Part shown: in pieces, positions 2,330-56,799 of the stretch | Numbering within the stretch: position 1 is the first letter of the stretch | How the letters are laid out: each line of letters begins with the position of its first letter | NCBI GenBank assembly: GCA_029204225.1 | Contig: CM055106.1 | Span: 34,074,361 to 34,138,360, forward strand | DNA from: Diphasiastrum complanatum | Lineage: Eukaryota; Streptophyta; Lycopodiopsida; Lycopodiales; Lycopodiaceae | Direction of reading: 5' to 3' | Length of the DNA: 64,000 nt | Made by a program: the position numbers and the translations under genes | Notes under the pieces: generated by a model | The model's input: only the letters and a program-made list of their open reading frames with translations | The model's database searches: none | Told to the model about the DNA's origin: nothing

Positions 2330-4850
2330 ATGCAGTGATCAAGAGAAGCTCTCTTCACAAAAGGAAAGAAGAAGAACAAGAACAAACCCAGATTCGACAA
2401 GAAAAAGTCCTTGAATCAACAATCTCTTCTTGTGATCATTGTGACAAACCAGGCCATACAACCAACAAATGCTAGTTCAATCTAGCAATACCTTGCATGC
2501 ACTACAAGAAGAAGGGCCACTCTGCATACAATTATAGATTCAACCCAAAAAGAAAGAACAAGGCTAAGAAAACAAATGTTGCAAAGTCATCCAAGGATGC
2601 AGACAGAGGTGATGAAGACTTCACAATACTTGATGAAGCTTCGACGAGCTACACTGAACAAGATTACAATGTAGTCATTGATTCAGGAACAACATCACAC
2701 ATCACCTGCAACAAGAAAATCTTGATCGACTTCAAAGAACTCGAAAATAACAGAACAATGATTTTAGTTGATGGGAGCAGACACGAAGTCAAAGGCATCG
2801 GGACTCTACAATTGCGAACACTGTCAGGTCAAGCAAAGCTGGCGAGAGCACTCTATGTGCCTGCACTGAGAAAAGATTTGCTATGTCTCCAAGATGGCAG
2901 ATCTTAGAATTTGAGTTTTGTTCGATGGCAATACATGCTGCATTATCGAGAAAACTACAAACAAATTGCTGACGATTGGATACAGAGAAGAAAATCTCTA
3001 CCAAGCCAAGATAATCAGCAACTCTAATAGCATATTAAATGCATCAAAGAATGAAGATCAGCTCTAGCATAGGATAATGTATCATCTGAATATGAGGAGC
3101 CTATATGACATGTGTAAGAAAGACATAGTCATAGGTCTAAAGATATCAAGACACAATACTGAGTTTTGCGAAGCTTGTCAGAAAGGCAAACAACATCAAA
3201 ATCCATTCACACATGAGGGAAGAAGAGCCAAGGAAGTTCTTGAGCTCATCCACTTAGATGTTTGTGGATCGATGAAAATGGATTTGCTCTCAAGATCGAG
3301 GTATTTCTTGACGTTCATAGATGACTACAGCCGTGACTACAATCTACTACATAAAGAATAAATCTGAAGTGTTTGATTCCTTCAAGAAGTTCGTGGCATT
3401 TGAAAAGCAACACACCTCAAAGAAGATTCAGATCATCATATCAGACAATGGAGGTGAGTGCAAGAGCAAAGAGTTTTCAAAATTCTGCCAAGAACAAGGG
3501 ATCGAGCATCAGTTCACTCCTGCGTACACACTGTAATACAATGGTGTCGCGGAAAGAAGAAACAAGATGCTAGTCGAAGGAGCCAGATGCATGATGGCAC
3601 ATGCTCAATTGCCAAATCAACTCTAAGTTGAGACAATAGTTGCAGTTGTACACCTGCAGAATAGATTAACAATGACAACGATGGAAAATAAGACATCGTA
3701 TGAGGTGTGGACAGGTAGAAAGCCTGATCTATCATACGTACGTGTGTTTGGATGTGCAGCATACAAGCACATTCCAAAAGAAAAGAAAAGCAAGCTCGAT
3801 GATAAATCAGAACAAACGATTATGGTCAGGTACTCGAACGGATCACAAGTGTACAAGATCTACAACCCAACCATGAAAAAGGTTGTTTCGAGTAGAGATG
3901 TGAAGTTCGATCAGTCGACATTCCTTGGACTAAAAGATGAAAGATGCGATGATATCTTCACACTACTGCCAATTCAAGAGGGAGATCAAGGACAGACGTC
4001 AAATCAAAATGTTGAGCCACAAACTCGAGAGCAGCAGGAGGCAGAAGATCAATCCCACGAACAAAAGACATTCGAACAATGACAAAACGATCCCAGAAGG
4101 TCAACAAGACAAAGAAGACCTCCAAAGCGTTACGTTGACAATCTTCAGTGGAGCAAAGACACGCAATTCGAGTACTGTAGTTTCACTGAAGAGCCAACAC
4201 CATATCAAGAAGCTATCCAGAGTCTAGAGGGAAAATTCTAGAAGCAGACAATGTCAGAGGAGATCGAGTCGATGAGGCGAAATGAGGCATCATGGACACT
4301 AGATCCACTACCAGAAAACAAAAAAATTATCGATTGCAAGTGGGTGTACAAGAAGAAATGAAATCAGATGGCACTATTGTCCATTACAAGGCAAGACTTG
4401 TCGAGAAGGGCTACACACAAAGATATGGTATTGATTATTTCAACACATATTTGTCGATGGTCAAGATGACAAGCATACGACTACTCCTTGCATACGCCAC
4501 ACAACATAATTTGAAATTTCACTAGATTGATGTGAAGACAGCCTTTCTCCACGGAGATCTAGAGGAAGAAATCTTCATGAAGCAGCCTGAAGGATTAAAA
4601 GACCCAACAATCGACAATATGTCTGTCAGTTGTAGAGATGCATTTATGGTCTAAAACATGCATCACGGGCTTGGTACAAGAAGCTCAATATTCTTCTGAA
4701 GTCTCTAGACTTCAATTCTACACAACCGGACTATAATGTCTACATAAAAAGAGTAGAAAAAGATTTTGTGATACTAACTATTTTTTTGGATGATTTCCTA
4801 ATGATAGAAAATTCCTTGATGCTGATAAAAGACATGAAGAGATAATGGAC
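2330..4850 (+). pseudogene. Ty1/copia gag-pol remnant, truncated at both ends
   Basis: Translation in shifting frames gives, in order: a gag zinc knuckle CDHCDKPGHTTNKC (about 2430-2472), a decayed second knuckle, the protease motif VIDSGTTSHIT (about 2677), a GAG-pre-integrase block with EFCEACQKGKQH (about 3160), integrase core pieces ending FTFIDDYSR, DNGGE and NGVAERRNK (3240-3570), the FGCAAYKHIP integrase tail, and reverse transcriptase with KARLVEKGYTQ and a degenerate catalytic FLDDFLM (about 4783). Defects include stops at 2473 and 3535, a frameshift near 3330 and several in the polymerase. Coding similarity ends about 30 residues past the catalytic motif; RNase H, most of gag and both LTRs are absent. 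It cannot be functional. Confidence 0.85.
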
Positions 4851-5136
4851 CAGTGAATTCTATGCTCAGATCATCTCATTTTGCATTGTATGCTACCTAC
4901 GTTGATCTGAGTAAGCATGAAAACTATGAGCTCTTGGATCCATACGAAGGAACAAAATTGTTGCATGATTCAAAGTTGCAACTTTCATTAGAGAAAGTAT
5001 CGAAAGTAGAGTAGATTTTGCTCAATTGTACTTTGTAAAAAAATTTATTTAATATACAAAGTCTTATTTTGTGTCTATTGCCTTTTGGCTTGTATAAATT
5101 TGCATGCTTTTTGAAATTTTTTATAATCTATCGATT
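4851..5136. other. No recognisable feature
   Basis: Spacer between the truncated copia and the 3' end of the minus-strand broken gene. It is AT-rich toward 5040-5130 and may include the 3' untranslated region of that gene. Confidence 0.35.
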
Positions 5137-7774
5137 TTATATTATGACAAATTTGGGTTCTTCTGTAAAACCATTGGAAAAGTTGCTGTTCTTTGTGCTA
5201 GTCCCACCATGTTGTGTACTTTTATGAAATGCCACTCTTGCTTGCCAATGAGATTTTTCCATTCCTTGCAATGACCATATGCTAAGACTTCCGCTATTTC
5301 TTGCGAAGAATGTCTCATGATGTCGTAATATGTGTTGCATGTCATAAAAACATAATCTAAATCAGTACCAAAAGTATGTAAATTAATTGCACATATTTGT
5401 CTATAGTAGTCTAACATTGAAATCTTACCATATAATGTGTTATATGATCTCCACCCCTGCACTTCGAACTACATCCACAAATTCACTCGTTTTTTTCTAT
5501 ATCATTTATACATTATTATTTGAAAATTTATCTTTTCACAAGTATTTCACCATGCTGTCTATTTTTTTTTCAAACTTCTTCTTTGAAATCTTGAGTTGCA
5601 GCTATAATTTCTTTCCAAACAGAGTATTGAATCTTGGATTGTTTGCCAGAATAATTTGATAAAAGTCTTTGAGCTTTGGATTCTCCAATGCTCGGCTTGA
5701 ATGGAATATTTCCTATTTTAACTGATAGCTTGTCATCTTTTTTTATTTTAATGTGGCCTTTATGTAAGCCTATTTCAGACAACGCATCCTCTAATCTAGA
5801 AATAGCTTCTTTCGCATCTGCCTCTGGCTCGAAATTCCAAACAAACAAGATGTGAAGATATATTATTTTTTCTATTATATGCACCTCTGCATGCAATATA
5901 TAGATATGAACATTCTGAAGAAGAATCGGTAGTACGGGTTTCCAATTAGGATCTTCTCGATCTCTTGATATTCCTGTACTCCTTGTCATGTTTTTTGATG
6001 TCTTCATGCAATACAAACAAGGGTGTTTAGAGTTAGCACCATGGGACACATTGAACATACATTTTAATGTCTTTTGATCTCCTGCTAAATGCCATTCTAT
6101 GTTGAAAGTGCCAATTTCAGGAATATTGAGTGGAACTCCCTCCATGTAATTTTTTATGGTGGCAGGATATGACGTTCTATTAAATATCCATGAGAGAATG
6201 TCATGGTCTTCTTTCATCACCTATAAGAGAAAACAAAAACATGATGTAGTCTCATAATATTAAAATGATTATCCCTATTGATTATGTGAAGTAACTTCTA
6301 TACCTGAAATGCTGCCAACCACCATATATCATTTTTTGATTGAACACTGAAGTTGAGGCCTTTTGAGTCTTCTGAATTTGAAAGTGTTCCATTCATGATC
6401 GTAAGGCTGACTCTCTCCATTTTTTGTCCTTTTATAGTTCTAGATCATCTAATTTGAAAACAACTATCAACTTGTTATTGACATTCTCATTTGTAATACC
6501 ATAAAAATTTATGGTGAATGTTAGTAGCTGATTAATATCAATAAATAAATTGTTGAAATTGTTATATGATACACATTCTCCTTTCGATCAATACACTTCA
6601 TTGATATGAGATGGATTACCAACTATTGTCTGCATACCTTGATTTAATATGTCTCTTTTTTTTAAGATGAAATGGTCATGGGATTGGAAACGTTTTAATA
6701 CTTACCTGTGCAAATGCCTCCTGTATCATCTTAAACATTGTTGCATATGCTTTTCTATTGTTGCTAGAAAAATCACATGCCTCCTAAACCAATGTAGTGT
6801 CTAATATTTTTCCAACTTCATTCATAAGGTTATCAATAACTGAAGCCTTTATCTTTTTCATTTTGTTATTGTTTAACATTGATTTCATAGATTTAGAAGT
6901 CAAGATAGAACCTCGTGAGTTCGGAATGGAAATCTCATCAGCCAAATGGTCTTCAGCAACCAACGCTGATCTACATTGCAAACATAATGTTCATGAAAAT
7001 GTCAGTAGAAATTAGGACACTCATAGTATTCACAGCACCATAATAAGAAAATCAACAGAAAGTTGAAATGAATAAATAACAAAACTAGTGATTATGAATG
7101 AATCAAAAAGTTCAAGCAATATTCAATACCAAATAAGCTATAGCTTACTTGAATGCATGGATTCGTCTTTTTCTATAACCTCCTCTGGATGATAGATCAC
7201 ATATATCCTTGGTTACCAGTCTTTTCCTCTTGTTGCTTCGGACTTTTCTGTTGAGCATATCCATATCTTTAGCAAGAGATAAATATGAGATACGCATGGA
7301 TTGGAATGCAATTTTTATCTCATCATTACTAGTTGTAAAATGATGCAAAGAAGATTTCAACCTTTGGATCTCCTTCTTGAACATCTCATTTTCTTCCAAA
7401 CAAGTTTTCAACTTTGTAGACTTGTCTTTGCACTCCTTTGATATTTTTCTTGATTCTTCTTCCAAATAATGTATTCTTTGCATTGAATGTGCATTTCCAT
7501 AGAGCATCAAATTCTCACAATAACCCAAAAGGCCATTTTTGGCATGACACATATAGATTATTAATTGACTCACCGAATGAAAATCCGGATGTTGCAATGA
7601 ACATGAATCAATAGGATACAATGTTCCTGATGACCATAACTCTACATGCTTTAGTTTTTCCTCCTTGTATCGGATCATATCAGAAGTTGACAATTTGGGT
7701 TGCTTTGAATTTCTTGTCCTGAACGGAGCATATTTTGGTGACAGATCCACATGAAGATGATAAAGCTTTGTCAT
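5137..7774 (-). pseudogene. Broken multi-exon gene, probable transposase-like protein of unnamed family
   Basis: Five exons can be read on the minus strand. Exon 1 runs 7774-7149 from an ATG to a GTAAGC donor and is rich in heptad-like coiled coil (about residues 110-190). Exon 2 is 6970-6706 (TAG acceptor, GTAAGT donor). Exon 3 is about 6629-6304. Exon 4 is 6220 to about 5570 (TTATAG acceptor). Exon 5 is about 5360-5140. Phases join correctly across exons 1-4 if one missing base at 6432-6434 is allowed for. Exon 3 holds the motif NDIWWLAAFQ. Exon 4 holds LAGDQKTLKCMF and a C-x2-C pair (HPCLYC). Exon 5 holds SIWSLQGMEKSHWQAR. Breaks: TAG at 6784-6786, TGA at 6588-6590, the 1-base loss, TGA near 5571 and frame changes beyond. 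The layout suggests a DDE-transposase-derived gene, but I cannot name the family; a decayed host gene is the alternative. Confidence 0.6.
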
Positions 7775-8109
7775 CAGTACAGTAGTATAGTAACAAACAA
7801 TACAATGACAATAACAAAGCTGGAGATGGCGCTAACGACATTGGAGATAGAGATGGCACTAAATACTTTGACCCTGGAGATAGAGATGGCGTAGACTTTG
7901 TTTCTGAAATGTCACTCCTAATTCAAATTTTTGAGTGTTTCCAACTATTGGGAGGGAATATTTCAGCATTTTGAAAAATTATACTTTATCTATGGTTAAA
8001 CACCAGTGAAGCTTGATGTGACTAAATTAAAGTGCATTCATTTACATGCAAAGTAGTGCGGGCAGATGCCTAAAGAAGTTAGAGAATAATGTTTCAATTA
8101 CTTTATAGT
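7775..8109. other. Spacer with short repeats upstream of the broken minus-strand gene
   Basis: Positions 7820-7900 contain GGAGATAGAGATGGC two to three times in degenerate form. No gene is seen. This would be the promoter side of the minus-strand gene starting at 7774. Confidence 0.4.
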
Positions 8110-9440
8110 TTTTTTTTCTCTCTCCTACATGGCCTTTCTTATAGGTCCCTCTTTTGGCCCGTATTTTCTCTAATGCGGTGGTGTCCTTCCTGGAACTACT
8201 ATCGGATAAAAGGCCGTATACTGTCCCTTATAAGGTCATTCCACAATTCGGTGGCCTTTGTTGCATCCATAGCAGCCAATGATCCTACCTCCCTGACGTT
8301 GAGGCTGTGCAGCATAGGTCGCATAGTATTAATTGATTGCTGGATCGACAAATGCCTCTTTCGGACCCTACCACTACCGCCGCTGGGGTTGGGGTGGTGG
8401 TTCTTGTTCTGCGACTAGATTTAGATGAGCCACTTGATTGTTAGTTGGCCCTGGTGGCGCAGGTAAGGCCATGCGCTATTGGTTATTTGGTGCACCGTAC
8501 TGCGGTGCCGCATTTGGTGCTCCTTGATGGTAAGGATAAGAGGTCTGATACTAATTCCACTTTTGCTATATGATTCAAGGGTTGTATGGGCAAAATGTCG
8601 TTTGGTACGACAATGCGTTGCACATGTGGCAAAACCTTTATGTCAGTTTGAGATTTTGCTTCAAAAATGGACACTCATTCATTGTATGGTTTTGGGTACA
8701 GATTGAACACCATACATTCTCTCGTCGTGAATATTGTAGTTGGTTCTGTTCTAGTGGATTTGGAGTTGGTGCTATAGCTCCCTGCAAGGCTTTTAGTTTC
8801 TGATCAAACTGTCCCGTTAGTTATTCCATTTGCAACTTGTGTAGCTTTGTCATTTGTTCCATCAGCAGCTCTGTTGATATATTGGAGGCGTTGTATGATG
8901 ATGATACCGAGGGAGTCGGACTATGGATGGTTGGATATGATTAATTGAACCACGTAATAGCCGCATGATCGGGAGTTAGGGCTGCATTGCATTCGCATCT
9001 TAAGTGCTTGACCCGTTCTATGTAGTCCCTGACCCTTTCTCTTTTTCTCATTTTTACCTTGCTTAGCAAGAGAAACGGATCTTCCAAGAACTCCCTTGGC
9101 TTGAAGCACATGATGAGAGCCATTTTAACCCCTTCCCAATTGGTCTTTTCTTCTTCCAATAGGTTGAAGAACCAATCTTGTGCTATAGCTACCAAAGACA
9201 TGGGAACAACATCAGTTTCTTCACCGATGTCCGATCTCCATAAATTTCACACGCTTGCTCGTAGATCTGGATGAATCTTATAGGATCTGATGAGCCATCA
9301 TATTTAGGTATTTCTATGCAAGGTGCTCTCCGGACTTCTTGCAAGAGTGCCACAGGTACGGGTTGACCCATAGGATCCATTGGTGCTGGTTCTACTTCTG
9401 CCTCGATTTGCATAGCTATAACTCTAGGAAGATTTGGTGC
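8110..9440 (-). pseudogene. Ty3/gypsy retrotransposon gag remnant with three zinc-knuckle-like motifs
   Basis: On the minus strand, frame one encodes PKYDGSSDPIRFIQIYEQA (about 9310-9255); after a frameshift near 9200 the frame continues with AQDWFFNLLEEEKTNWEG and REFLEDPFLL, the retrotransposon gag fold typical of Ty3 elements. One continuous register then runs to about 8110 with a few stops. It contains WCSICTQNHTMNEC (about 8710), FCHMCNALSYQTTFC (about 8632, histidine replaced by tyrosine) and CYGCNKGHRIVE followed by a stop (about 8275), three degenerate CCHC knuckles separated by proline/asparagine-rich linkers. No protease or polymerase follows. It is a dead gag fragment next to an unrelated minus-strand gene. 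Confidence 0.75.
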
Positions 9441-21419: not shown

Positions 21420-22943
<1,524 letters not shown>

Positions 22944-42329: not shown

Positions 42330-43045
42330 TGACTATCGAGGGCTAAGTGTCAGCGGCTAAGAACTTAGGGCCACCAGCTAAGGGTAAAGGTCTTAAGACT
42401 AAGGGCTAACTAACTAAGGATTGAGGGCCAGCTAGCTAAAGACTGACTCGGGCCAACTAGCTAAGGACTGAGGGCCAACTAGCTAAGGACCAAGGGTCAA
42501 GGGCCAACATCTAAGGGCTAAGACTAAGGACCAATTGGTTGAGGGCTAAGGGCTAAGGGCCTAGATATTAGGGCCAACAACTAACGATCAAGGTCTAAGG
42601 ACTGAGGGCCAACTAGTTAAGGATTGAGGGCCAAGGTCTAAGGACTGAGGGCCAACTAGCTAAGGATTGAGGGCCAAGGTGTAAGGACTGAGGGGCAACT
42701 AGCTAAGGACTGAGGGCCAACTAGCCAAGGGTCGAGGGCCAATGTCTACGGGCTAAGACTAAGGGCCAACTGGCTAAGGGCCGAGATATAAGGGCTTAGG
42801 TCCAATTGCTAAGGGCTAAGTGCTAAGATCTAAGGAATAAGGGCTAACGGCCAAGGACTATAGTCCAATGGTTGAGGACCAAGTGGGAAGGGGTAAGGGC
42901 CAAACTTTAAGACCAACCAATGCTGCGTAAGGGCTACGTGCCAAGATCTAAGGAGTAAGGGCTAACGGCCAAGGACTATAGTCCAATGGTTGAGGACCAA
43001 GTGGCAAGGGGTAAGGGCCAAACTTTAAGGACCAATGGCGAAAGG
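42330..43045. repeat. CTAAGG minisatellite
   Basis: About 700 bases of degenerate units such as GACTGAGGGCCAACTAGCTAAG (about 22 bases) and GGGCTAAGG. Within it, a longer block starting AAGATCTAAGGA and ending GCCAAACTTTAAG is duplicated about 111 bases apart (from about 42829 and 42940). A short piece of the same satellite also lies at 41325-41400, on the other side of the AATTGCGG-rich element. Confidence 0.8.
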
Positions 43046-43414
43046 CTAAGGAAGATCCACTAATATTTTATAAAGATATTTAAATTACATAAAACTATTT
43101 CGAGATACAAACAATTTCAAAACCTAGGTATATTTATCCAGCTATTTACATTGTGTGTTATAAATTTACATCTACATTGTATGTATGTATGTTTCAACGT
43201 ATGTTGGCATCATAATTTCTCTTTGTGTGTGTAGGGCTTGCAATGGAAAATGATCGTGAGAAAAATGTCCGCGTAAGGCACGAGATAAGTCGAACATTGC
43301 ATGCAATATGTGGGAAGAACCATGTTTAAGACTTAAACCTGTACTTTTAGGTAAAACCATATGTTCAAAGGCATTTCAAGATCTATTGGGAGTTTCCCAT
43401 GATTGTTTTGGCAG
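43046..43414. other. Probable intron or spacer before the transposase-like exon
   Basis: No gene. It ends with TTGTTTTGGCAG, a good 3' splice-acceptor context just before the open frame at 43415. Confidence 0.35.
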
Positions 43415-44314
43415 ATAATCTCAGAGGCACGCAACAATATTGTCTATAAATTTCATGGGAATACAAGTACATTAAAACAGTGCGCACATTTCAGACGGGG
43501 ACTTGCTATTATGCGTGGAATCTTAGAAAAGCATGCTCTACCCCAATCGCATCTTCAACATAAATCAAAAGATGGAGTAGCTCATTGTGAACATCTCCCT
43601 CTTGGCATGTCTAAAGGTGATGTCTTCAATTCCATCAACAAAGAACTTCAAGAAACTAGCATGTCCACAATCTCCAGAAATACATTGTATCGGTTGTGGA
43701 GACATGAGTTTCGATATGTCAAGACTCCAACAAAACAAATAATGTCCAAATGCAAGATTTGTGATGAGCTAAAAAATGCGATCGAAACTTCTACTGATAT
43801 CAAGGTGCGAGATCGCCATATTGCAAAGAGAAATCGGCACTTATTGCATGTTTTTGACTCGAGAAAGCTATACACATATTGGAAAGAAGAATCAAGATCA
43901 CATCCAGAGCAATCGTTGTGCCTTATTATTGATGTCATGGATCAAAATACAACAGCATTGCCCCATTTCAAAAACACTCCTCCAAGATTGGAGGGTAACC
44001 ATTTTTTGAAAACACATGTTTGTGGAGTGCTAGTTCACGGATTCAAATTGCTCTGTGATGTGTGGATAAACACCTTGCATCTGCATGATAGCAATCAGGT
44101 GGTCACATCCATTATGCGAGCAATACGAAAGGTGCAACTTGCACGCGACAATCTCCGTCCCATCTTACGTACAAATTGGTTAATGCATGTGCAGCTGATG
44201 TTGATGCGTACTAGGTTGAGTTGTAAACTTTTTGTTATTCTAATAGTGCATAGTCTATTAGCTAAATTTGGATGCAAGACTTATGAGAATCTGGATGATG
44301 TTGCAACATATTGA
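43415..44314 (+). pseudogene. Transposase-like protein exon with IIDVMDQ motif
   Basis: The frame has no ATG near its start and opens right after a splice-acceptor-like CAG, so it is best read as an internal exon. Visible motifs: a C-x2-C pair in SKCKICDELK (about residues 115-124), KLYTYWKEESRSHPEQSLC, then LIIDVMDQNTTALPHFKN and HVCGVLVHGFKLLCD. The order (zinc pair, acidic IID.MDQ, LPHF, H-x-x-G-x-x-x-HG) matches large uncharacterised transposase-like proteins I know from several eukaryote groups, possibly a DDE enzyme with the aspartates in IIDVMD. After about 44130 the frame appears shifted: the expected next block is lost. A full protein would need more exons; the rest is not found. Confidence 0.45.

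Positions 44315-44730
<416 letters not shown>

Positions 44731-52378: not shown

Positions 52379-52469
<91 letters not shown>
52379..52469. repeat. (AG)n microsatellite
   Basis: About 90 bases of perfect AG dinucleotides. Confidence 0.97.
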
Positions 52470-53624: not shown

Positions 53625-55188
53625 GGTGGGGGGATCGCAAATCGATGGAGAGAGCTGCCAAAGAAGTCTGCCAAATAGTGAGAGAGAGAGAAAGGCGGGG
53701 ACAGAAAGGAGAGAGTGGCTCACTGGAACTGTGTGTGTGTATGTATATATGTATGTATATAAATACATATTATGCTCTGGAGTGTTTTGTGGGCAGGTGG
53801 TTACTGCAGATCTGCATGGGCGAGCTCGTATTGTCTTGCGCCTTGAAAGAACTACACGAGCTGACGATAAGTAGCAGGCTGCAGTGGATCAAGGGTAAGA
53901 GCACATCAAACTGTTTCATGTCAGCGTGTTCTGAGGTATAATTTCAGGTGCTAAGAGGGGAAGGCCGGGCGATCGCGAACGAGTTTGAGGGCTTGAGATG
54001 AGGTGGTAAAAGGGAAAGGAGAGTGAGAACCTGGAGATGAGGCAGTAGGGGAGAAGGAGTGGAACTAGAGGGTGAGAAGCTGGAGAAGTGGTGTTGTTGA
54101 TCTTGCGTAGGTGCTTACTGTTGGCAAGCATTGTAATTTGTTACACTTTGAGGGAGTAGGTCGTGCTCGTGGAGATCACTCTTTTGTGCCTCTACTTTCT
54201 GCTGAAGAAGTACGTGTTGTTGGAGTTTTATTTTAACATCGACTCAGTTGTGCTATATTGGGCGGGTAGGGCTCTGATATATCATGGAATCGGACATGAA
54301 CGTCTCATTCTCATCATCAATCATTGCTATTTAATGTTTCTCTTCTGCAATTCTGTAAAAGTTGCTCTTGCAAACTAGTCACTTTGCAGTGTTTATCTAT
54401 CATCCAGAGGAAACTCGCTTGATGTCCATGCTTAAAGGAACAACGAACTTAGAATCAAGAACTGAAAAAACACGACGGTACAGCCAAGTTACAGATTGCA
54501 GTTTCAAAGAGTAAACATGAAAGAATGTTAAGAGCCTAATTACTTTAAAAAAAAAAAGATACGCTCATCAGCTATGGCTGCGGCCTTCGGGTCCAATAAA
54601 ATTAGCTTGTAGATGTCACATGCTCGTTAGCCATGAGCAACTAGCAATCAAATACCCAATGAGCTTACCAAGAGTCCTGCACCAGAGTTGTTTTAGAGCT
54701 TTTTACATCATGTCTGCAGTCTGTAGTTCTTAGAACCAGAAAGATTGTCCCCCAATTTGCAACAGAAAATAAATCACAGATCAACTGCCTTGTGTGTATT
54801 TGTTAAGGATCAAAGCTGCTTAAACGATTTGAGGCGTTATATATTCTATTGCGTCTCATCTATTGCATGTGCAGATATTTATTATTAGTTTAGAATGAAA
54901 AAAATACTATTAGAACAGCTACTCCACTGCAAAACCAAACCCAAATCTTGCGTTCGCTTTGAGTGTACCAAGAAGGCAGATACTTAACGAATGACTCAAA
55001 ACAATCTGAGACCCAAAACAATCTGAGACGACAAGATCAAGACATCCACAAGGCTGACATTCCTTTCTGTTGAATTCTGCAGATTCCAAGTTCAACTGGA
55101 GCATCTGAGACACTCTATCAAATTCATCTCAATAAATTAGACCGTTTTTCTCAATTCTTGGCTGTTTAAAACAACCGATTTGATTTCA
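53400..55188 (+). promoter_or_regulatory. Putative promoter and 5' leader of the KNOX gene
   Basis: Base composition becomes markedly GC-richer at 53400-53900 than in the transposon-filled DNA to the left, with a (GA)17 tract at 53587-53621 typical of plant 5' leaders. GGGTAAGAGC at 53892 is a good splice donor and TTCTGCAG ending at 55082 a good acceptor, so a 5'-leader intron of about 1.2 kb is plausible. A start site and TATA box cannot be fixed (TATATAAATA near 53755 is a candidate). All inference from sequence signals. Confidence 0.4.
53587..53621 (+). repeat. (GA)17 microsatellite in the KNOX leader region
   Basis: Short perfect GA run in GC-rich sequence upstream of the KNOX coding start. 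Confidence 0.9.
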
Positions 55189-56799
55189 ATGGAAATGCAA
55201 CAGTTCCAGTCCATGCATTCCTACACGGAAGGAAGACTCTCACAAAGCTCCGAAGATCTCATTCCACCCACGCAAGGTACCTTTGTTTGCTCAGAGGACG
55301 ATCATGGACAGGCTCTATACTACGATGGTGTTGGTATGGTGCACGATCGCCTTCACGAAAGCGACGAGCAACAGATCGTAGGCCATACGCTAAGTTACGA
55401 TCTGGAGGAGTATTTATCAATGCCTCATTATCAAGCAGAGCTGATGAACTCCTTGTCTCCAGAATCGGCGAATCTTTGCTACAATTCTGCTAATCAGCTG
55501 GATCATCTTACAGCTTGCTATTCAGATGCTTCCCTGGTCTCAAATACTTCAGAGTTTGCTGAGCAGAGACTTATTCCATCGCAGTTGGCCGACGCTTTGG
55601 CTGGAGATCACATGGAGAGCGAAATCAGGGCAGCCATCCTTGCCCATCCTCACTATCCTCGGTTGGTTGCAGCCCACATGAGCTGCCACAAGGTTGATTA
55701 TACGTCCATCCCTACATCGTGGATGTACACATCATCCAACCCAGTAGAAAGAAGTATTTTAACGATGAAACTTTACAAACATCATTGTGTAGAAAGATTT
55801 GTTTGCTCTCTTACCACTGCTACTTTACCAGCGACTGGAATTATTGCATGTTATTAAGTCTCTGATACACTCTAGGGAAGAATATCTCAGAGGCCTGTTA
55901 AGTCTACTTTTAGTAAGATGATCAGCTTAGAAAAGCCCCGCGAAATTTTCTTAAAACACGTACTAACTGATCTTGGAAAACATTAACGTTTAGTAGTATA
56001 TCAGCAGTTGTGTACTTGCACCATTTGCTTTTGATCTCTAGAACTGACGTGATGCACAAATGGTCCGACCCATGAAACTTCTCAACAACTATCTACCGAT
56101 GATGCATAATAGAATCGGTTAGTGTCACCTGGCATATCCTTCTTTTGAAGGAATCGTCTACTGAAGGTATTACTTTTTAATTTCTTTTCAATGTTCATGC
56201 ACTGGCAAGCATGTCAGTGTTTCTCATTATGTAAAGCTGCACGATGAGGATAAGCTTGATGATGGTTTGCCTGACAGGTAGCAGCTTCTCCGGAAGTCGT
56301 TTCTCAGATTGACGACCTCATTCGGGAATTCCATGAGAGGCAATTTATACCAAGCAGCAGTCTCGGAGCAAATCCAGAACTCGATCACTTCATGGTGAGA
56401 ATGTGCCCCTCTCTTAAATGCTTAGGCAATAAGCATTTCACTTATGAGGGTGTACAAGCAGGTTGTCTGTTTTCTTTGCAGAATAATAGTAGGCGGGACG
56501 ATGGAACATGACACGTTCTGTATAGTTTTAATCTTAGCACTGCTGTCTGTATACACATGAAGTAATCTAATTTAAGCTTATATAATTGGCATCTGATTTA
56601 TCTTCATTTAGCTTTGCTTGGGCCAACTTATAGCAGATCATACCGATAATATATTTCTCTTGTTTTTGACAGGTTTCCTACTGCAATATGCTGATGAACT
56701 ACGAGCAAGAGGTTAGCAGGACATACAAAGATGCGATGTCTTTCTGCAGGAAATTGGAACAGCAGCTGAGCGTTTTTTCAACTGGAAGTATCGTGTCAG
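55189..56799 (+). CDS. KNOX: Class I KNOX homeobox-family protein, N-terminal (MEINOX) exons
   Basis: A homeodomain-family transcription regulator of shoot meristem and leaf development, acting in the nucleus with BELL partners through the MEINOX domain. Exon 1 is 55189-55692 (168 codons), exon 2 56278-56394, exon 3 56673-56799. The start is the ATG at 55189 (MEMQQFQSMHSY); an in-frame TAG lies at 55138. Exon 1 is a poorly conserved leader, then KNOX1 (AILAHPHYPRLVAAHMSCHK), continued in exon 2 (VAASPEVVSQIDDLIREF). ANPELDHFM and exon 3 (VSYCNMLMNYEQEVSRTYKD) form KNOX2. The AHPHYPRL form marks class I rather than class II. Junctions are phase 0 and match the standard class I intron positions. 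The exon 1 donor GTTGAT is weak. Exon 3 ends at SG|GTTTGA. The GSE, ELK and homeodomain exons are not found before 64000, where the family usually has a long intron. Confidence 0.88.

Follow-up and report, generated by a model that had tools for sequence, protein, structure and literature searches.

A broken, intron-containing gene in Diphasiastrum complanatum that probably encoded a RAG1-like zinc DDE transposase

The window analysed here is a stretch of 64,000 nucleotides of the Diphasiastrum complanatum genome (contig CM055106.1 of assembly GCA_029204225.1, positions 34,074,361–34,138,360, forward strand). On its minus strand, between 7774 and 5137, lies a multi-exon gene that is now broken. 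From its splice signals and reading frames it can be modelled with three introns, each bounded by splice sites and all agreeing in phase. Exon 1 (7149–7774, minus) starts with an ATG at 7774 and runs for 626 nt, free of internal stops, up to the donor GTAAGC. Intron 1 (6971–7148, minus; GTAAGC to TGTAG) is followed by exon 2 (6706–6970, minus), whose 265 nt bring the phase back to 0 and which has one in-frame TAG at 6786–6784. Intron 2 (6630–6705, minus; GTAAGT to TATGCAG) combines a strong donor with a weak acceptor, and exon 3 beyond it (6304–6629, minus; 326 nt) has a TGA at 6590–6588 and a shift of frame near 6434. Intron 3 (6221–6303, minus; GTATAG to CTTATAG) leads into exon 4 (5570–6220, minus), which opens in phase 0 and stays open for 216 codons until a TGA at 5572–5570. 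A preliminary description of this DNA had placed the same splice boundaries, claimed the agreement of phases that the three exon lengths bear out, listed the same three stops and taken exon 3 to be one base short of 109 codons – all of this holds.

The three donors used in the model score 9, 7 and 6 of 9 against the consensus; apart from the exon 2 donor, just one GT site on the minus strand of the whole window reaches the full score. The acceptor of exon 3 has pyrimidines at 4 of 11 positions. On the same strand, the two long stop-to-stop open reading frames have 228 codons (208 counted from the ATG) and 216 codons, while 200 simulations of the local 3 kb with an order-2 Markov model never produced one of at least 200 codons (mean longest 102.5, maximum 186).

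Past exon 4 the gene is eroded. The decayed continuation of exon 4 (5362–5569, minus) has stops in every frame from 5570 to 5361, and over 5569–5140 the three frames contain 12, 8 and 5 stops. Beyond it, the C-terminal block (5137–5361, minus) is open again and terminates with TAA. The five-exon structure proposed in the preliminary description stands for exons 1 to 4 and is not supported for the fifth, since the best of the five GT sites in 5720–5501 scores 5 of 9, below all the donors in use, though an intron between 5720 and 5501 could be masked by decay. Without a fifth-exon intron the model runs to 766 codons instead of the roughly 690 residues described earlier, and the distance from the proposed second catalytic Asp to the final Glu, read intron-free, is about 273 codons of DNA. 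The earlier count of "only a few breaks" also understates the damage to the 3' third, and the eroded 3' part makes a recent death of the gene doubtful.

The translation contains NDIWWLAAFQ, HPCLYC and SIWSLQGMEKSHWQAR, as previously described, and a set of residues that can be read as the active site of a DDE transposase with a split zinc site. By motif, the first catalytic Asp is proposed in VVFKLDD (6447–6449, minus; also by its distance), the second in WHLAGDQK (6077–6079, minus) and the Glu in GSLSIWSLQGMEKSH (QGMEKSH, 5257–5259, minus), whose counterpart in RAG1 is GSIGAWASEGNESGN. The three candidates, at 6449, 6079 and 5259, lie at fitting distances from each other within this single sequence, for which no relative was found. 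In the CMCT clade, which comprises EnSpm/CACTA, Mirage, Chapaev, Transib and RAG1, the signature given in PMC12730594 is a C(2)C and an H(3-4)H between the second D and the last E; the conserved residues named in the legend of Figure 4 there are three H and two C. Here, a C-x2-C is present in HPCLYC (6008–6019, minus), 20 residues past the second Asp and ahead of the Glu. An H-x4-H is present between it and the Glu in QHILRHH (5317–5334, minus; His at 5334 and 5319), 25 and 20 residues ahead of the proposed Glu; it is read in the same frame as the Glu, but two frames overlap here close to a shift of frame, which calls for caution. A candidate for the third conserved His of the clade is the middle His in NVHIYILHAEV (5891–5893, minus), which we tentatively pair with that in DALHCDIG of mouse RAG1. 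The C-x2-C that the preliminary description took for a zinc-type pair fits as one half of a RAG1-type split zinc site.

The spacing of these residues resembles that of RAG1, in which D600, D708, C727/C730, H937/H942 and E962 are the corresponding residues named in PMC4914335. From the second Asp to the first Cys there are 19 residues in RAG1 (D708–C727) and 20 here, and the two His precede the Glu by 25 and 20 residues (H937/H942/E962) in both. The first and second Asp are 108 residues apart in RAG1 and about 96 apart here, the second Asp and the Glu 254 and about 273. A test for a RAG1-type layout – an H-x4-H at −25 and −20 from the Glu with a C-x2-C about 19 residues past the second Asp – was positive.

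How often such a layout arises by chance was estimated in several ways, all of them post hoc, the motif having been noticed before the tests were run. Over both strands of the window taken together, there is a single D..CxxC motif paired with an HxxxxH..E motif at 600–1000 nt, and it lies at this locus. Simulated 64-kb sequences have a mean of 0.17 pairs with the same spacing, with at least one in 10 of 60 sequences, and by our own arithmetic from these simulations about 0.003–0.004 pairs are expected per stretch and strand of the size of the gene. Taken separately, with 20,000 shuffles each, the D..CxxC motif appeared in 0.31% of those of exon 4 and the H..H..E motif in 10.5% of those of the C-terminal piece. 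In the fixed catalytic register, a 37-residue C-terminal block (QHILRHH to ARVAF, compared with FHKTLAH to RRFR of mouse RAG1) has 8 identities with mouse RAG1, three of which are the anchors themselves. This was equalled by 0.025% of 20,000 shuffles, or 0.87% with the anchors excluded. Around the second Asp the likeness to RAG1 does not exceed chance: 14% of 5,000 shuffles of this block with the anchors kept did as well.

With neither matrix did the two exon 3 pieces or exon 4 align significantly to mouse RAG1 in free local alignment. With BLOSUM62, 290 and 56 of 500 shuffles did as well as the two exon 3 pieces and 143 as well as exon 4; with BLOSUM45, the numbers were 435, 169 and 225 of 500. 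The C-terminal piece was equalled by 9 of 500 shuffles (BLOSUM62) and 21 of 500 (BLOSUM45), in a best register that is not the catalytic one. The second piece of exon 3 aligns QKMERVSLTIM with EKAVRFSFTVM (RAG1 617–637) at the expected place just past D600, again not significantly. With no significant free alignment to RAG1, the assignment rests on the layout.

Searches against family models returned little. The Pfam search was run on seven pieces of the gene and one overlapping frame; it covered exon 3 from codon 14 onwards and only a minor part of 5362–5569. Exon 1 had nine weak matches, all below the cutoffs, the best to Filament (E 0.0017) and several to coiled-coil families; its N-terminal region appears coiled-coil-like, and no RING domain was matched there. 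Exon 2 and exon 3 had one below-cutoff match each (E 0.048 and 0.12), and exon 4 and the C-terminal piece had none. Neither RAG1, EnSpm nor any other transposase model was among the Pfam matches listed for these pieces at E up to 10, a negative that is limited by the HMMER filters, which discard most weak matches. PHROGs gave six weak matches for the three pieces searched, all in exon 1 (best E 0.022), while NCBIfam (two pieces and the overlapping frame) and the PDB by sequence (two pieces) gave none. An AlphaFold2 model of exon 4 alone, from the single sequence, had a mean pLDDT of 35.2 and was too poor for use.

Relatives were not found in prokaryote contigs (14 pattern matches for the exon 4 query, none confirmed), in viral contigs (seven for exon 4 and three for the C-terminal piece, none confirmed) or, for the exon 4 query, in phage genomes. 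The DNA pattern for GMEKSHW occurs at eight loci in viral contigs, in all eight of which nearby stops break the frame and no relative is encoded. For a eukaryotic element such absence from prokaryote, viral and phage DNA is expected and says little. Within the 64-kb window there are no further copies beyond chance, the best other match having an E of 0.92. Among the literature matches listed, the titles and abstract openings contain no report of a plant gene for a transposase like RAG1 or Transib; plant relatives may already be present in Repbase. The preliminary description had placed the gene in a transposase-like family, perhaps one that animals have as well and that is not typical of seed plants. 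The first part of this is supported, and made more specific, by the D-D-C(2)C-H-H(4)H-E layout with its RAG1-like spacing. With the second the missing Pfam match is compatible, but it is no proof.

The ends of a mobile element, for which the preliminary description had proposed a search, were sought around the gene between 4600–5139 and 7775–9199, and none of the 22 candidate pairs is a convincing terminal inverted repeat or is joined to a convincing target duplication. The best pair is 11 bp long (CATTAGAGAAA at 4986, with its complement ending at 8175) and has no target duplication; a pair of 11 bp arose by chance in 26% of 300 simulations, or in 5.7% if a CA start was required. None of the 22 candidates is a CACTA-type terminal pair, and the ends of the element may be lost or lie outside the flanks searched.

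The gene is flanked by a copia reverse transcriptase remnant ending at 4842 and by gag remains at 8941–9246 (minus), and at several places the window contains domains of gag or reverse transcriptase of the copia type. Insertion of the gene into the neighbouring copia element was considered: the remnant stops at 4842, and a search with six copia sequences of the window as queries found no continuation up to 11000, so that no empty-site argument is possible. For about 165 nt past the copia remnant (4846–5010, plus), a different open frame (LRSSHFALYATYVDLSKHENYELLDPYEG...) can be read by eye.

The rest of the window contains several other features. No tRNA gene was found in it by ARAGORN, nor any Rfam match at the gathering thresholds. 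The ORF at 55141–55854 (plus) matches Pfam KNOX1 (E 1.4e-9) over 24 of 43 profile positions and represents the beginning of a KNOX1 homeobox gene, which marks the window as plant DNA. It reads AAILAHPHYPRLVAAHMSCHK up to where the match stops, as at the end of an exon. A 303-codon open stretch at 43403–44311 (plus) matches Pfam DUF7869 slightly above the cutoff (E 1.7e-6) and carries a C-x2-C (SKCKICDE); it is possibly another transposase-like gene, though this is a guess. Upstream of it, at 42397–43035, are degenerate CTAAGG-rich tandem arrays with periods of 22, 43, 65 and 118. Perfect CT/GA runs are found at 21928–22047 (60 copies), 44552–44725 (87 copies) and 52379–52469 (45.5 copies).

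The locus is probably what remains of an autonomous cut-and-paste DNA transposon, or of a host gene that arose from such an element, that encoded a zinc DDE transposase of the CMCT type. It is unlikely, but conceivable, that the encoded DDE transposase belonged to a different superfamily (hAT, P, Kolobok, KDZ or one not yet described) and that the RAG1-like spacing is a coincidence: D, H and E occur often in proteins, 10 of 60 simulated 64-kb sequences contain a chance motif pair, and there is no significant sequence similarity to RAG1. Such a coincidence would have to put the C-x2-C nearly at the RAG1 distance from the second Asp and the H-x4-H exactly at the RAG1 distance from the Glu, and Pfam listed no transposase family of any kind for the pieces tested. 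In hAT transposases a C/D-x2-H follows the second Asp; here there is a C-x2-C in its place, and no hAT match was listed by Pfam.

Somewhat less probable still is the pseudogene of a single-copy host gene that had been domesticated from a transposase and was not itself mobile. The three introns, the lack of a convincing terminal inverted repeat or target duplication and the absence of a second copy from the window would all suit such a gene, but it sits amid decayed copia and gag fragments, as mobile elements do. An old plant gene unrelated to transposases, for a coiled-coil protein with a zinc finger and since broken by mutation, would account for the weak matches of exon 1 to coiled-coil families and for the remainder of the gene having no family match. 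It would leave the D/D/CxxC/H/H/E layout and the likeness of the GS..W...GxE block to RAG1 as accidents, and is very improbable. The most economical reading, and the best, is a dead RAG1-like zinc DDE transposase that the plant EnSpm model of Pfam does not recognise.

RAG1 and Transib act as a dimer on terminal repeats, cleave with two metal ions and carry out strand transfer. If the layout is read correctly, the intact protein of this locus would have had an RNase-H-like core with D, D and E at 6449, 6079 and 5259, and a zinc site split around a long insertion, with the C-x2-C just past the second Asp and the H-x4-H just before the Glu. The putative N-terminal coiled coil could have helped the protein to dimerize. 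If it worked as RAG1 and Transib do, the dimer would have bound the terminal repeats of the element, used two metal ions to cleave at its ends and then joined the excised DNA to a target. The present copy can hardly transpose, since its reading frame is broken in several places.

RAG1 and Transib are among the known systems closest to this gene. They have in common with this gene the long insertion between the C-x2-C and the H-x4-H and comparable D–D and D–E distances; they differ from it in that the N-terminus here is coiled-coil-like, with no RING match, and the host is a plant. Comparison by alignment to mouse RAG1 and by Pfam gave no significant similarity. The RAG1 core was itself derived from a Transib transposase, according to PMC4411706. 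ESTA, Plavaka, Lanisha, Chapaev and Mirage have the zinc-DDE signature in common with this gene, by the description in PMC12730594. The same source places plant EnSpm/CACTA in the clade sharing C(2)C and H(3-4)H, but Transposase_21 (PF02992) is not among the Pfam matches listed here at E up to 10. In plants, the CMCT clade is known for EnSpm/CACTA, whose transposase model in Pfam we take to be that same Transposase_21, and whose elements have CACTA-type terminal inverted repeats and a 3-bp target duplication.

It is a tentative proposal, and rather doubtful, that a RAG1-like lineage of CMCT zinc DDE transposases distinct from EnSpm/CACTA lives or once lived in land plants, with a transposase that contains introns, is headed by a coiled coil and is matched by no Pfam model. 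Such a plant lineage could be a counterpart of animal Transib/RAG1 or of fungal ESTA, either by descent or by transfer between kingdoms. If true, it would point to a type of transposase that the Pfam models tested have missed, and would extend this class of enzymes by a second, RAG1-like branch in plants, with a bearing on the age of the RAG1-type catalytic core.
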